Shown: piece after piece, positions 10,808 to 16,121 of the stretch
Layout of the letters: every line of letters begins with the position of its first letter
Position numbering within the stretch: position 1 is the stretch's first letter
Origin: an uncultured SAR86 cluster bacterium
GTDB taxonomy: Bacteria; Pseudomonadota; Gammaproteobacteria; Magnimaribacterales; AG-339-G14
Assembly: GCA_902523885.1 (NCBI GenBank)
Contig: CABZAV010000006.1
Location: forward strand, 1 to 38,987
Direction: 5' to 3'
DNA length: 38,987 nt
Notes under the pieces: model-generated
Database searches by the model: none
Told to the model about the DNA's origin: nothing
What the model saw: the letters and a program-made list of their open reading frames with translations, nothing else
Program-made: the position numbers and the translations under genes

Positions 10808-12112
10808 TTAACTAGCTTTATCTATTGCCTGAGTAATGTCATCAATAATATCCTCAACATTCTCAATTCCGATAGATAATCTTACATAGCCAGGTGTCAC
10901 ACCTGCAGAAAGTTGTTCTTCTGGAGCTAATTGACTATGCGTTGTAGTTGCAGGATGAATGGCTAAGGATCTTGAATCTCCAATATTAGCAACGTGATAC
11001 AGAAGCTCCAAAGAGTCAATAAACTTACTACCCGCTTCCTTTCCGCCAGGTAATTCAAAACCGATTAAAGCACCATAACCACCAGTCATATATTTATCAG
11101 CCTTTTCTTTTTCAACTCCTTCGAATAATCCTGGATAAGTTACCGATTGCACTTTTTTATTGGCTGCGAGAGCTTTGGCAACTGCTTGAGCATTTTTTGC
11201 ATGTTCTCTCATTCTTAACGGTAGAGTTTCCAGTCCTTGAATGAACATCCAAGCATTGAAAGGACTCATGGCGCCGCCTAAATCTCTTAACAAAGTAGTT
11301 CTTAGTTTAAGCAAATAGGCAAAAGGAAGTCCCATATTTTTTGTCACTTGTTCGTCCCAAACTACTCCACCATAACAAGGATCTGGAGTATTCATAGCTG
11401 GCTGCCTATCAGCGCCTGCTTTTCCCCAATCAAAATTACCGCCATCCACAATCAAACCACCAATGGTAGTTCCGTGACCGCCAATATACTTTGTAGTTGA
11501 ATAAGTAGTAATAGCAGCTCCATGATCAAAAGGCCTACATAGGACTGGTGCAGCAGTATTATCAACTATTAATGGAATATCATGTTTTCTTCCAATTTCT
11601 GCTACTTCGGAGATAGGAAAAACATGAAGTTTTGGATTTGGCAATGTTTCTGCAAAATAAGCTCTTGTTTTATCATCAGTGGCCTTTTCAAAATTTTCCG
11701 GGTCAGTAGGATCAACAAATCTCACTTCAATACCCATTTCTTTCAAATTATTTTTGAATTGATTGTATGTGCCGCCATATAAGTGAGAAGAAGAAACAAT
11801 GTTATCCCCTGCTCTAGCTAAATTTTGAATCGAATAAGCAGATGCTGTTTGTCCTGAAGCAACTGCAAGCCCTGCTGCTCCTCCATCCAACGCAGCCATT
11901 CTTTGCTCAAGCACATCACAAGTAGGATTCATTATTCTGGTGTATATGTTTCCAAATTCCTGCAAACCAAAAAGACTCGCTGCATGAGCAGTATCATTAA
12001 ATTGATAGCTTGTGGTTTGATGAATTGGAACCGCTACTGATCCTGTAGTTTCATCGTTTCTCCATCCCGAATGAAGCGCGATAGTTTCTAAATTTTTTCC
12101 TTCGTAAGCCAT
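10808..12112 (-). CDS. metY: O-acetylhomoserine sulfhydrylase MetY
   Basis: A 434-residue PLP enzyme that makes homocysteine from O-acetyl-homoserine and sulfide, the direct sulfhydrylation route to methionine. Family features include ETIALHSGWR at the N-terminus, the motif YTRIMNPT (57-64), and the PLP lysine Lys208 in STTKYIGGHG. Its length matches MetY and exceeds the roughly 390 residues of MetB/MetZ. AGGAG lies six bases before the ATG. The leader carries a SAM-II riboswitch and an attenuator terminator, so transcription should fall when S-adenosylmethionine is abundant. It is a single-gene unit ended by the hairpin at 10771-10790. Confidence 0.96.
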   Translation of the reverse strand: MAYEGKNLETIALHSGWRNDETTGSVAVPIHQTTSYQFNDTAHAASLFGLQEFGNIYTRIMNPTCDVLEQRMAALDGGAAGLAVASGQTASAYSIQNLARAGDNIVSSSHLYGGTYNQFKNNLKEMGIEVRFVDPTDPENFEKATDDKTRAYFAETLPNPKLHVFPISEVAEIGRKHDIPLIVDNTAAPVLCRPFDHGAAITTYSTTKYIGGHGTTIGGLIVDGGNFDWGKAGADRQPAMNTPDPCYGGVVWDEQVTKNMGLPFAYLLKLRTTLLRDLGGAMSPFNAWMFIQGLETLPLRMREHAKNAQAVAKALAANKKVQSVTYPGLFEGVEKEKADKYMTGGYGALIGFELPGGKEAGSKFIDSLELLYHVANIGDSRSLAIHPATTTHSQLAPEEQLSAGVTPGYVRLSIGIENVEDIIDDITQAIDKAS

Positions 12113-12133
12113 TTTTTCTCCTGTAACTTAAAA

Positions 12134-12165
12134 TAAAAAAACCTGTTTGCTTTCGCTAAACAGGT
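12134..12165 (-). terminator. Attenuator terminator in the metY leader
   Basis: On the minus strand an eight-bp stem ACCTGTTT/AAACAGGT (12141-12165) is extended, after one bulged A, by two GC pairs capped with a GAAA tetraloop. Seven T follow, at 12135-12141. It lies 22 bases before the metY ATG and 9 bases past the SAM-II aptamer. Its 5' arm is also complementary to the aptamer 3' strand. Confidence 0.92.
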
Positions 12166-12173
12166 CTTAAAAG

Positions 12174-12226
12174 TCTTGTTTAGCAAAATTTATAAAGCGT
12201 TTGCAAGTCAGATAAATCAACGCTAG
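12174..12226 (-). ncRNA. SAM-II riboswitch aptamer upstream of metY
   Basis: On the minus strand the P1 stem AGCGTT/AACGCT encloses GATTTA and ends TTGCA before the second strand. ATAAA and GCTAAA follow at the spacing of the known SAM-II (metA motif) pseudoknot. TTTAT in the loop can pair with ATAAA, and TCT with AGA at the 3' end, as the pseudoknot requires. SAM-II is an established S-adenosylmethionine sensor commonly found before methionine genes such as metY and metA. The match is by eye from memory of the consensus. Confidence 0.9.
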
Positions 12227-12267: not shown

Positions 12268-13128
12268 ATGAAAAATTTAGAAACAGTTCGAACAGAGGTA
12301 AGAGAAAATTCTCTAATCATTTACTTATCAAGAGAAGAAAGAATGAATGCTTTTACTCTTAATATGCAACAAGAGATAGTAAAAGTTTTAGACGATGCAG
12401 AAGAAGATGACGACATAAAAGCAATTATATTTTCTGGTGACGGAAAAGCTTATTGTGCAGGAGCAGATTTATCATCTGGAGGAGATACCTTTGATAATAG
12501 AAAAGGAAGAGAAAGAACTAATGATGTTGTAAGAGATTCTGGTGGTTTGCTTACATTAAGACTTTTTAAATGTAAAAAACCTCTTATTGCAGCTGTTAAT
12601 GGGGCTGCTGTTGGAATTGGAGCAACTATGTTACTACCAATGGATACTAGAATTTGCTCTGATCAAGCTCGCTTCGGTTTTGTTTTCGCAAAAAGAGGTA
12701 TCGTCCCTGAAGCAGCATCGAGTTGGTTTCTTCCAAGATTGATTGGTATTAATAAAGCTTTAGAACTTTGTTATACCGGAAAGGTAATCTCTGCTGAAGA
12801 GGCAAAAGAAATCAGGTTAGTTTCTGAGATATTAAATCAAGATAAATTAATTGATAGAGCCCTTGAAATTGCCAAAGAATTTACAGCTGAGAGTTCACAA
12901 ATCTCTATAGCACTTACCAGACAGATGATGTGGCGTATGCTTGGTGCCGACGATCCTATGGAAGCTCATAAGATTGATTCAAGAGCAGTTTTTGAACTGG
13001 GCCAATCAGGAGAAGCAATTGAAGGTGTGACTTCCTTTCTAGAAAAACGTCCCCCTTCTTTTCCAGGAAAAGTTTCAAAAGATATGCCAAGTTTTTTTCC
13101 ATGGTGGGATGAAAAAGAATTTGAATAA
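12268..13128 (+). CDS. Crotonase / enoyl-CoA hydratase-family protein
   Basis: A 286-residue crotonase. The CoA-binding and oxyanion segments are AYCAGADLS (61-69) and NGAAVGIGAT (111-120), and the second conserved region reads FGFVFAKRGIVPEAASSW. Glu148 in VPEA sits where isomerase-like crotonases such as PaaG carry an acid, while the glutamate that classical hydratases have earlier (QPE) is not present. It may therefore be an isomerase or a hydratase with altered chemistry; the exact reaction is open. There is no Shine-Dalgarno sequence and the predicted leader is very short. The carboxyltransferase gene starts two bases after its stop, so they are co-transcribed. Confidence 0.9.
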   Translation: MKNLETVRTEVRENSLIIYLSREERMNAFTLNMQQEIVKVLDDAEEDDDIKAIIFSGDGKAYCAGADLSSGGDTFDNRKGRERTNDVVRDSGGLLTLRLFKCKKPLIAAVNGAAVGIGATMLLPMDTRICSDQARFGFVFAKRGIVPEAASSWFLPRLIGINKALELCYTGKVISAEEAKEIRLVSEILNQDKLIDRALEIAKEFTAESSQISIALTRQMMWRMLGADDPMEAHKIDSRAVFELGQSGEAIEGVTSFLEKRPPSFPGKVSKDMPSFFPWWDEKEFE

Positions 13129-13130
13129 AT

Positions 13131-14660
13131 ATGTCTTGGAAAAAAGAAATTAAAGAGATCGGTATCAGAAAAAAGGCTTCAAAAGCTCAAGGAGGTAAAG
13201 AGGCGGTAGAACTTCACCATAAAAAAGGAAGACTTACTTTGAGAGAAAGAATTGATATTTTTCTTGATAAAGACTCCTTCGAAGAAATAGGAGAATTAGC
13301 AGGAGGAGTAGAAAAAGATGAAGAAGAAAACTTCAAATCAATGACTCCTGCAAATTTTATTTTAGGTTTTGGAAAAATAAATGGAAAACAAATTATAGTT
13401 GGCGGAGAAGATTTTACAGTTAAAGGTGGTTCACCAAATTCAGCCGGTTTAAGAAAAAGTGTTTACACTGAAGAATTAGCTATTCAATACAAATTGCCTT
13501 TAGTCAGGCTTCACGAAGGTGGTGGTGGCTCGGTAGCTGGACCAAAATCAGGTTCCAGTGCAGATCCGGTCTTTACAAGATCTAGATTCAAATCCGTTGC
13601 TGATTCATTGAAAGAAGTGCCAGTTGCTAGCGCTGCGCTTGGACCTGTTGCTGGTCTTCCTGCTTCAAGATTTGTAGGCTCTCATTTTAGAGTAATGACG
13701 AAAAAAAATTCTCAAATATTAGTTGCAGGACCGCAAGTTGTCTCAAGAGCTTTCGGAAAAGAATTTACTAAAGACGAACTGGGAGGCTCAGATATTCATA
13801 AAAAAAATGGTGTGACAGATAATATTGCTAATACCGAAGAAGAAGCTTTAGAGCAAATCAAAACTTTTTTATCTTACTTCCCTCAAAATGTATACGAAAT
13901 TCCTTCCTCTATAGAATCTAATGATTCTCCAGAACGAACTGAATCTGCCCTTTCATCTATTATTCCAAAAGAAAGAAATAAAAGTTATGAAATGAGAGAT
14001 ATATTGAATCTGGTATTTGATAAAGATAGTTTTTTTGAAATGACTAATTTTTATGGTCGAGGCATAATCACGGGTTTTGCAAGGTTGAATGGTTTTTCCT
14101 TTGGAGTTTTTTCAAATGACAGTAATTTTTATGCTGGTTCAATGACTGCAGATAATGCAAAGAAGACATCTCGATTTGTAAAACTTTGCGACACATTTCA
14201 CTTACCCATTATTACATTTGTGGATGAACCTGGTTTTTTAATTGGTCCGGAAGCAGAGAAAGAGGCAACTATCTTGCACGGTACCGAAGCAGTTCTTGCC
14301 GTAAATGAAACTTCAGTTCCATGGGCTACTGTTTTGGTAAGGAAATCTTTTGGGGTTGCAGCTGCTGCACATTTTGGGAATAATCCTTATGTTCTAGCTT
14401 GGCCGTCCTCTGAATCAGGAGCACTGCCATTAGAAGGAGGAGTTGCAGTTGCATTTGCCAGAGAAATTGCAAATGCTGATGATCCAGATAAGAAAAGAAA
14501 AGAAATTGAAGAAGAAATGGCAAAAAAACAAAATCCTTTTTCAAAAGCAGAAAGTTTTTCCGTTCATGAAATTATTGACCCCAGCGAAACTAGAAAGTAT
14601 CTTTGTGGGTGGATTGAGAAGGTTCAGCCTCAATTAAAGGCAAGATTACATATAAAATAA
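13131..14660 (+). CDS. Acyl-CoA carboxyltransferase-domain protein, unusual clade
   Basis: A 509-residue carboxyltransferase with both crotonase-like halves. The N half has LTLRERIDIFLD and RLHEGGGGS; the C half has FVDEPGFLIGPEAEKE, with DPSETRKYLCGW near the end. In propionyl- or methylcrotonyl-CoA carboxylase beta subunits each half has a Gly-Gly oxyanion motif (GPCAGG; YGGAY). Here these read GPVAGL (171-176) and FGVAAA (407-412). No biotin carboxylase or biotin carrier gene is in the window. I recall the FGVA variant from other annotated but uncharacterised carboxyltransferases, so it is likely a real clade. Whether it uses biotin is unknown. It sits in an operon with a crotonase and an aldehyde dehydrogenase. 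Confidence 0.88.
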   Translation: MSWKKEIKEIGIRKKASKAQGGKEAVELHHKKGRLTLRERIDIFLDKDSFEEIGELAGGVEKDEEENFKSMTPANFILGFGKINGKQIIVGGEDFTVKGGSPNSAGLRKSVYTEELAIQYKLPLVRLHEGGGGSVAGPKSGSSADPVFTRSRFKSVADSLKEVPVASAALGPVAGLPASRFVGSHFRVMTKKNSQILVAGPQVVSRAFGKEFTKDELGGSDIHKKNGVTDNIANTEEEALEQIKTFLSYFPQNVYEIPSSIESNDSPERTESALSSIIPKERNKSYEMRDILNLVFDKDSFFEMTNFYGRGIITGFARLNGFSFGVFSNDSNFYAGSMTADNAKKTSRFVKLCDTFHLPIITFVDEPGFLIGPEAEKEATILHGTEAVLAVNETSVPWATVLVRKSFGVAAAAHFGNNPYVLAWPSSESGALPLEGGVAVAFAREIANADDPDKKRKEIEEEMAKKQNPFSKAESFSVHEIIDPSETRKYLCGWIEKVQPQLKARLHIK

Positions 14661-14678
14661 TAATTATTAAGGAGAAAT

Positions 14679-16121
14679 ATGAATAAATACGAACAATTTT
14701 ATATCAACGGCGAATGGATAAATCCTGTAAATAAATTAAAAACGTTGGATGTTATTAATCCTGCAACTGAGGATGTTATTGGAAGCATTGCTATGGGTGA
14801 TTCTGATGATGTTGACGCAGCAGTTAAAGCTGCAAAAGATGCCTTCAAAACATTTGGACAAACTACTACAGAAGAGAGAATTGAAATTCTTCAAAAAATA
14901 GTTGAGATCTACATGACTAGATCTGCAGAAATTGCGGAGATGATTTCAATAGAAAATGGTTCTCCTATAACTCTATCCAGAAACGCACAAGCGGCATCGG
15001 GCATAGGTCATTTCGCAACTGCTCTAGCGACTTTACAAAATTATAATTTTGAAGAAATTAGAGGCGAGACGGTCATCAGAAAAGAACCCATTGGCGTAGT
15101 AGGAATGATAACTCCTTGGAATTGGCCCATAAACCAAATTTCTTGCAAAGTTGGTCCAGCAATTGCAGCAGGTTGCACAATGGTATTGAAACCAACAGAA
15201 ATAGCTCCTTTAAATGCGATCTTATTAGCTGAGGTTTTACATGAAGCAGGATTGCCGAAAGGAGTATTTAATTTAATCAATGGAGATGGGCCAACTGTGG
15301 GAGAAGCGATGTCTGCTCATCCAGACATTGACATGATGTCTTTTACAGGTTCTACCAGAGCCGGAGTAGCTGTTGCTAAAGGCTCCGCTGATTCAGTAAA
15401 GAGAGTTCATCAAGAGCTCGGAGGAAAATCTGCAAACATAATTTTAGATGACGCGGATTTTGCTAATGCAGTAAGCAGAGGTACCAAGCATATGTTCAAC
15501 AATACTGGTCAATCTTGTAACGCTCCTTCAAGAATGTTGGTACCTGAAAGTAGACAAGCTGAAGCAAAAGAAGCTGCTAAAAAGGTTGCTGATGAGTTAA
15601 AAGTTGGTGATCCTTCTTTAGAAGAAACAGTCATGGGTCCTGTAGTGAGCGATGTTCAATTTAATAAAATTCAAGGCTTGATAGAAAAAGGCATTGAGGA
15701 AGGTGCTGAAGTTGTTGTAGGAGGTTTAGGAAAACCAGAAGGATTAAATCAAGGTTATTTTGTTAAACCCACGGTTTTTGCAAACGTATCAAATGATATG
15801 ACAATTGCTAGAGAAGAGATATTCGGTCCAGTTTTGTGCATGATTCCTTATAAAGACGAAGAAGAAGCTATTAAAATTGCTAATGATACTCCTTATGGAT
15901 TATCAGGATATATTTCCTCCGAAGATCCCGAACATGCTTTAAGTGTTGCGAGAAGAATTAGAAGTGGAAACGTTCATATAAACAATGCGCCAACAGGTAT
16001 AAATGATCCTTTCGGAGGTTTTAAACAATCTGGGAATGGAAGAGAATGGGGAGTTTTTGGATTTGAAGAATTTTTAGAAATCAAAGCTGTATTAGGTTAC
16101 AAACCCGACGAAATAGATTAA
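14679..16121 (+). CDS. NAD(P)-dependent aldehyde dehydrogenase
   Basis: A 480-residue class I/II-like aldehyde dehydrogenase. Catalytic residues are in place: Asn148 in TPWNWP, Lys171 in VLKPTE, Glu246 in HQELGGKS and the nucleophile Cys280 in TGQSCN. The dinucleotide-binding loop is FTGSTRAGV. It oxidises an aldehyde to an acid; the substrate is not visible. AAGGAG lies eight bases before the ATG, the strongest ribosome-binding site in this operon, only 18 bases after the carboxyltransferase stop. Its stop codon shares TTAA with the stop of the next, convergent gene. Confidence 0.93.
   Translation: MNKYEQFYINGEWINPVNKLKTLDVINPATEDVIGSIAMGDSDDVDAAVKAAKDAFKTFGQTTTEERIEILQKIVEIYMTRSAEIAEMISIENGSPITLSRNAQAASGIGHFATALATLQNYNFEEIRGETVIRKEPIGVVGMITPWNWPINQISCKVGPAIAAGCTMVLKPTEIAPLNAILLAEVLHEAGLPKGVFNLINGDGPTVGEAMSAHPDIDMMSFTGSTRAGVAVAKGSADSVKRVHQELGGKSANIILDDADFANAVSRGTKHMFNNTGQSCNAPSRMLVPESRQAEAKEAAKKVADELKVGDPSLEETVMGPVVSDVQFNKIQGLIEKGIEEGAEVVVGGLGKPEGLNQGYFVKPTVFANVSNDMTIAREEIFGPVLCMIPYKDEEEAIKIANDTPYGLSGYISSEDPEHALSVARRIRSGNVHINNAPTGINDPFGGFKQSGNGREWGVFGFEEFLEIKAVLGYKPDEID

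Follow-up and report, generated by a model that had tools for sequence, protein, structure and literature searches.

A SAM-II riboswitch leader with a predicted terminator before an apparently alphaproteobacterial-type metY in a SAR86 bacterium

The metY leader and its identity

We analyzed a 38,987-nucleotide stretch of DNA from an uncultured SAR86 cluster bacterium (contig CABZAV010000006.1; hereafter the window). SAR86 is an abundant uncultured lineage of the ocean. On the minus strand, a leader bounded by the metY ATG at 12112 and by the start of a divergent enoyl-CoA hydratase gene at 12268 contains a SAM-II aptamer, followed by an intrinsic terminator and metY (Table 1). The preliminary description had placed a SAM-II riboswitch before metY in a gammaproteobacterium, and this was right: SAR86 is filed in Gammaproteobacteria, the motifs P1 AGCGTT/AACGCT, GATTTA, TTGCA and GCTAAA stand in the order it gave, and the metY product passes the TIGR01326 model with 600 bits against a cut-off of 495, which places the aptamer upstream of a methionine-biosynthesis gene. 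Its end points, 12174-12226, took in the aptamer and missed the terminator. A simple terminator scanner reported nothing at 12135-12166; this scanner accepts loops of 3-8 only, and the terminator loop is 9 nt. A scan of the leader for a sigma-70-like promoter found none; according to the available text of Corbino 2005 (PMC1273637), the transcription start site of SAM-II leaders usually lies a few bases before P1. The divergent cluster at 12268-16121 encodes members of the enoyl-CoA hydratase, methylmalonyl-CoA decarboxylase-alpha-like carboxyltransferase and aldehyde dehydrogenase families.

Table 1. Features of the metY leader and its flanking genes in the window.
Feature	Position	Strand	Remark
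Divergent enoyl-CoA hydratase family gene	12268..13128	+	Upstream limit of the leader
SAM-II aptamer	12174..12224	-	
P1 5' strand AGCGTT	12219..12224	-	4/6 P1 pairs changed on both sides in 50 leaders
P1 loop GATTTATCTGACTTGCA	12202..12218	-	Holds the L1 uridines and the 5' strands of P2a and P2b (the latter TTGC, 12206-12203)
P1 3' strand AACGCT	12196..12201	-	
Pseudoknot 3' strand GCTAAACAAGA	12174..12184	-	P2b, then P2a
Proposed antiterminator 5' strand TTGCTAAACA	12177..12186	-	Region of GCTAAACAAGA plus two preceding bases
Terminator 5' arm and loop TGTTTAGCGA	12153..12162	-	10 bp complementary to TTGCTAAACA, one G-U
Intrinsic terminator GACCTGTTT-AGCGAAAGC-AAACAGGTT and T tract	12135..12166	-	
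Shine-Dalgarno-like AGGAG	12118..12122	-	
metY	10808..12112	-	O-acetylhomoserine sulfhydrylase family, type found in Alphaproteobacteria

The Rfam SAM-II model RF00521 (SAM_alpha), run in E-value mode, scored the window at 29.9 bits (E 4.7e-5), with a gathering threshold of 36; at gathering thresholds the window yielded two tRNAs and no SAM-II. At E 0.001, this was the single RF00521 match in the whole 1.11 Mb genome (E 3.6e-5), and none of 14 control genomes had one. The preliminary description had proposed that a score below gathering would speak against the assignment, and 29.9 is indeed below 36. This is a poor refutation test, because 118 of 369 sampled genomes of the class, including that of the window, match RF00521 at E 0.001 and only 30 of the 369 reach gathering. 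We then used two further models, R1 from 28 gammaproteobacterial aptamers outside SAR86, with no SAR86 sequence, and R2 from 21 non-gammaproteobacterial aptamers; both were made from top-scoring RF00521 matches and represent the better-scoring members. With R1, the metY leader scored 36.4 bits (E 5.6e-8, a rough value from a short calibration) and the next best position in the window 11.3 bits; with R2, the leader scored 25.0 bits. This gap, together with the covariation described below, rules out a chance match. The long-loop model RF01726 scored 21.6 bits against a gathering threshold of 44 (E 0.073), which places the leader outside the long-loop group. The folding z-score of the whole leader was only -1.49.

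Only one SAM aptamer was found before the window metY. SAM-V had no match at E-values up to 10, and RF01725 (SAM-I/IV) had none at E 0.001 in the window genome, which is 88% complete, so that the locus does not belong to the tandem type. It resembles the tandem SAM-II/SAM-V leaders of Pelagibacter in its marine origin, small genome and methionine genes, and differs from them in this single aptamer.

Conservation of the pseudoknot and distribution of the aptamer

We aligned 50 leaders (alignment A1), 36 from SAR86 and 14 from other Gammaproteobacteria, leaving out SAR86 near-duplicates, L020 and L026. The 14 were taken from 21 such leaders with a terminator. The P2a and P2b pairs were defined from what we take to be the published SAM-II pseudoknot, and tested on this alignment. 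P1 was paired in 99.7% of cells, with four of six pairs changed on both sides. Similarly, both P2a pairs had changed on both sides, and 92% of cells were paired. All three P2b pairs were invariant and thus uninformative by themselves. In total, 93.6% of cells were paired, compared with 32-50% when the partner was slid by 1-3 columns. Four of five covariation measures exceeded shuffles; the measure of further pair types did not (399 of 500 shuffles were as high). The terminator helix was paired in 85% of cells of the same alignment, which we counted as a point against the proposed switch. GCUAAA was invariant in 50/50 rows, and GATTT and TTGC were also invariant or nearly so; the window shares this conserved core. 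These results support a pseudoknot formed by UUGC/GCUAA (P2b) and P2a. The pairing of TTTAT with ATAAA that had been proposed earlier fared differently, with none of its four pairs changed on both sides in the 50 leaders and nothing above shuffles, and we discarded it. Judged from its sequence, the feature is a genuine SAM-II riboswitch that is conserved and comes with a transcription terminator; it belongs to a known RNA class and is ordinary for SAR86.

The preliminary description had regarded SAM-II as mostly alphaproteobacterial, a premise that is outdated, as gammaproteobacterial cases have been published since 2005. In the portions of these papers available to us, Corbino 2005 (PMC1273637) reported a small number of SAM-II examples from Bacteroides and from further proteobacterial lineages, with a Coxiella sequence aligned, Barrick and Breaker 2007 (PMC2258182) found the class in Gammaproteobacteria and Bacteroidetes and raised possible horizontal transfer, and Meyer 2009 (PMC2704228) listed Alpha-, Beta- and Gammaproteobacteria. 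For SAR86 itself, we found no link with SAM-II in the literature searched; PMC5069961, as far as its text was available, names SAR86 in its reference list only. A wider distribution, which the same description had suggested, is true of the 369 sampled Gammaproteobacteria. Across the phylum, 58 of 299 genomes matched and 49 reached gathering, and the top scores all came from outside the class. Among the window genome and 40 relatives, 27 of 41 matched and six reached gathering, whereas R1 matched 96 of 151 genomes of the order, in 20 of 22 genera. MetY was matched at 1e-60 in 119 of these 151 genomes, some only distantly (41-49% identity). The nearest MetY loci (92-99%) were mostly from named SAR86 single-cell genomes, with a few labelled only Gammaproteobacteria.

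The leader was present in 39 of 39 SAR86-type metY loci examined, two of which (L056 and L093) carry a changed base before ATTT, the G of GATTT. One of the 39 (L065) lies on a contig labelled Gemmatimonadales UBA2989 with a SAR86-like metY locus and is probably mis-binned. We also read by eye 18 metY loci of family f3 and two of f4. In 16 f3 loci SAM-II stood near metY and no clear terminator could be seen, and two (L269 and L270) showed no SAM-II. Several f3 leaders (among L253-L268) have a T-run in place of GATTT, which suggests a different output. Two further SAM-II-like SAR86 leaders without a detected terminator (L012:1501-1575 and L028:1501-1575) precede a gene of the fatty-acid-desaturase family and one encoding an unknown small protein.

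Among seven tested target genes of other gammaproteobacterial SAM-II leaders, four were metZ, and the others were metK, metF and a different metY. The metK-like genes follow SAM-II at L119 (confirmed by TIGR01034) and, by eye, at L132 and L138; the metF gene (TIGR00676) is at L135. In relatives of the window genome within the same order, 8 of 25 SAR86 SAM-I/IV loci (L214-L221) have a SAM-II motif just upstream; in two short loci, L210 and L224, the region searched was not centred. All eight precede an OmpW-like outer membrane gene, three by Pfam PF03922 and the rest by eye, and in G693, G696 and G751 the coordinate order is SAM-II, SAM-I/IV, OmpW, SAM-II, metY. Tandem SAM-II/SAM-I-IV as such is not a new arrangement, since the available part of PMC9481103 counts seven; in the literature searched we found no report of OmpW as its target. 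At E 0.001, no match to OmpW or to SAM-I/IV was found in the window genome. At three loci of non-gammaproteobacterial genomes (L273, L274 and L279), two SAM-II aptamers stand in tandem, with a terminator after the first by eye. The next gene is a sulfhydrylase in L273 and L279, and in L274 another ORF stands between the aptamers and MetY.

A predicted transcriptional switch

We consider it very probable that the leader is a SAM-II riboswitch that switches metY off at the level of transcription. The evidence consists of aptamer homology and covariation, the terminator, and two mutually exclusive pairings conserved in relatives: the terminator 5' arm is CCTGTTTAGC, the aptamer 3' strand is GCTAAACA, and pseudoknot and antiterminator require the same bases. 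At low S-adenosylmethionine (SAM), newly made GCUAAACA would pair with UGUUUAGC in the terminator 5' arm to form an antiterminator, and polymerase would continue into metY. At high SAM, the ligand would lock GCUAAA into the pseudoknot and leave the terminator 5' arm free for its 3' arm; the terminator would form, and transcription would end at the U tract, short of metY. GCUAAA, the strand for ligand binding, is likely to double as the antiterminator. Binding of SAM, reported for SAM-II in the available text of Corbino 2005 (PMC1273637), is presumed here, as are a kinetic choice between the pairings and termination in cells; repression would be expected to lower homocysteine synthesis. A SAM-sensing switch at this step would bear on how methionine demand is set in a streamlined cell.

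When prefixes of the window RNA were folded every 3 nt, those of 76-91 nt gave the antiterminator and longer ones, starting at 94 nt, gave the terminator; the fold energies, including P1, were -15.1 and -19.0 kcal/mol, respectively. Leaders without a detected terminator, namely 4/52 from SAR86 (L012, L022, L027 and L028), 8/29 from other Gammaproteobacteria and 6/30 from the alphaproteobacterial set, were left out of the prefix and helix counts that follow. The same switch in prefix folding was found in 46 of 48 SAR86 and 19 of 21 other gammaproteobacterial leaders. By contrast, it was found in none of 34 non-gammaproteobacterial leaders (0/10 PS1 and 0/24 others). A contiguous antiterminator helix of at least 7 bp was present in 30/39 SAR86 metY leaders, 8/9 other SAR86 leaders and 15/21 from other Gammaproteobacteria, against 0/10 from PS1 and 7/24 from the alphaproteobacterial set. 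In A1, antiterminator pair 7 was C-G or U-G in 31 of 36 SAR86 rows and G-C in 13 of 14 other gammaproteobacterial rows, and pair 8 was A-U in 35 of 36 and C-G in 9 of 14, a comparison that is conditional on the rows chosen, since the gammaproteobacterial leaders left out of A1 (L111, L119, L121, L128, L129, L132 and L138) all have an antiterminator helix shorter than 7 except L129. A point against it is an A-C mismatch in the antiterminator, carried by seven of the 36 SAR86 rows (L042 and L045-L048 among them). In full-length minimum-energy folds, with pseudoknots unscored, the terminator was present by our own criterion in 24/48 SAR86, 9/21 gammaproteobacterial, 6/10 PS1 and 16/24 other non-gammaproteobacterial leaders. 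As only half of the SAR86 folds contain it, equilibrium folding alone would not make a switch, and kinetic control would be needed.

Among the closest known systems is the alphaproteobacterial SAM-II before genes such as metZ of S. meliloti, which shares the H-type pseudoknot, P1, GATTT, TTGC and GCTAAA as well as a following sulfhydrylase gene and a downstream terminator. According to PMC9373788, transcription is predicted to terminate at the SAM-II of S. meliloti metZ, which yields an sRNA of ~100 nt that is higher in high-SAM medium. The window type differs in having a shorter loop (7-9 versus 9-13 nt), a shorter P2a-like helix (median 3 versus 5) and GCUAAA as antiterminator, a role that the prefix test assigned to none of the 24 alphaproteobacterial-set leaders. 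The split between alpha- and gamma-type expression platforms in the sampled leaders amounts to a testable claim on the way one aptamer came to be wired to two different terminators.

Two other readings of the leader have to be weighed. SAM-II can block ribosome binding, as stated in the available text of PMC10907184, and the f3 leaders carry the aptamer near metY without a clear terminator, so the aptamer might govern translation and the terminator be incidental. We regard this as very unlikely, however, because the Shine-Dalgarno-like site lies ~50 bases past the aptamer, beyond the terminator, and a terminator was detected in 48 of 52 SAR86 leaders, almost all of which belong to f1 and f2. 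The lower R1 scores of f1 (28-45 bits) relative to f2 (50-65 bits), together with the altered GATTT of L1 in several f3 leaders, could point instead to a SAM-II leader that has decayed or been retuned to another ligand. Such a history is hard to reconcile with the (near-)invariance of GATTT, TTGC and GCUAAA in the 50 A1 leaders, with the compensatory changes in their stems, and with a G of GATTT changed in only two of 39 SAR86 metY loci, and we give it little credence. The transcriptional OFF switch is the reading that we prefer for the leader.

Ancestry of metY and its leader

The surprise of the locus is the ancestry of its alpha-type MetY, not the switch. SAM-II in a gammaproteobacterium is unremarkable; what merits further attention is the gamma-type expression platform together with the foreign metY. 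SAR86 MetY appears, from sequence comparison, to be derived from a different bacterial class and to be of alphaproteobacterial type. It was monophyletic in a tree of f1 and f2 (100/100; 16 SAR86 rows, with L234 dropped as short) and in a tree of f1-f4 (98/90), and was sister to the PS1 clade in both (100/98). The clade enclosing SAR86 and PS1 MetY otherwise held only alphaproteobacterial or other non-gammaproteobacterial rows among those sampled (100/100), where the label 'alpha' denotes for part of the genomes the same phylum and a class other than Gammaproteobacteria. Rows L163, L239, L243, L246 and L248-L251 were not used, and the 'gamma' group of the f1-f4 tree included L245, from the same phylum and another class. 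Non-gammaproteobacterial genomes also have other MetY types, with seven such rows outside that clade in the f1 and f2 tree. Among matches at 1e-100 in 274 sampled gammaproteobacterial genomes, no MetY outside SAR86 exceeded 56% identity to that of the window. Ten MetYs of non-gammaproteobacterial genomes were at 65-70%. Transfer, which the preliminary description had offered as an explanation for the leader, thus fits the gene, whose product is nested among alphaproteobacterial MetYs; for the leader it is neither shown nor excluded. The combination of an alpha-type MetY with a gamma-type leader offers a case in which to ask whether riboswitches travel together with the genes they control or acquire others.

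The leaders themselves fall on the gammaproteobacterial side. R1 scored higher than R2 in 34 of 34 SAR86 leaders, three of which R2 did not report at E 0.1, and in 18 of 18 f3 and f4 leaders, some unreported by R2 at E 0.5; R2 scored higher in 10 of 10 PS1 leaders. The loop measured 7-9 nt in SAR86, 8-12 nt in other Gammaproteobacteria, 12 nt in PS1 and 9-13 nt in the alphaproteobacterial set. Gammaproteobacterial SAM-II leaders before metZ (L113, L116, L122 and L131) share the aptamer subtype and the GCUAAA/UUUAGC antiterminator with those of SAR86, but control metZ, whereas the SAR86 leader controls an alpha-type metY. SAM-II of the PS1/OCS116 clade, which has the closest MetY relatives outside SAR86, likewise precedes metY, yet differs in a P2a-like helix of 6-7 bp, another terminator and the lack of a GCUAAA antiterminator.

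We see about an even chance that leader and metY came together from an alphaproteobacterium with a short-P2a SAM-II before MetY. Four non-gammaproteobacterial genomes (G411, G417, G634 and G667) have SAM-II aptamers with a far better fit to the gamma model (67.8-73.4 versus 28.5-37.5 bits). In G417, ~290 bases separate such an aptamer from a downstream MetY with 68% identity to that of the window; in G411 the distance is ~675 bases, the MetY is 70% identical, and an ORF of ~170-210 aa lies between. These pairings of an R1-type aptamer with an alpha-type MetY make co-transfer as good an explanation as the alternative, or better. SAM-II also precedes metY in 10 of 10 PS1 relatives. On the other hand, the leaders of PS1, the sister in MetY, score higher with the alpha-type model in 10/10 and have a GCUAAA antiterminator in 0/10, and among 14 non-gammaproteobacterial loci examined, five scored higher with the gamma model and nine with the other, a share biased by choosing the loci partly for weak Rfam scores. 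The argument that the leader must be native since PS1 leaders differ is weakened by the four gamma-type non-gammaproteobacterial loci, of which two precede an alpha-type MetY.

Alternatively, and more tentatively, the riboswitch may have been native to Gammaproteobacteria before metZ, which an incoming alpha-type metY then displaced, so that switch and enzyme would differ in origin. The preference of all 34 SAR86 and all 18 f3 and f4 leaders for the gamma model is consistent with this, as are the antiterminator design common to SAR86 and other Gammaproteobacteria and the four metZ genes among the seven targets. A SAM-II motif was found within ~420 bases upstream in 0 of 27 non-SAR86 gammaproteobacterial MetY loci (best matches), and MetX of the window genome passes an O-succinyltransferase model (580 versus 560), MetZ being the enzyme that uses that product. 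However, joint arrival covers the same facts with one event, SAM-II also precedes a MetY of another type in some Gammaproteobacteria (L112), and MetX also passes NF001209, named for an O-acetyltransferase (515 versus 331); against TIGR01392, the acetyl form, it stays below the cut-off (441 versus 500). The fuller proposal, in which SAM-II has two mechanistic subtypes, GCUAAA is the antiterminator of the gamma subtype, and a native SAR86 switch captured a foreign metY from Alphaproteobacteria, which took the place of metZ in an O-succinylhomoserine pathway, strikes us as rather unlikely when taken as a whole.

A separate observation concerns the enzymes of the window genome: its MetX (L287:1486-2586) passes the O-succinyl model, yet the riboswitch-controlled sulfhydrylase matches the O-acetylhomoserine family.
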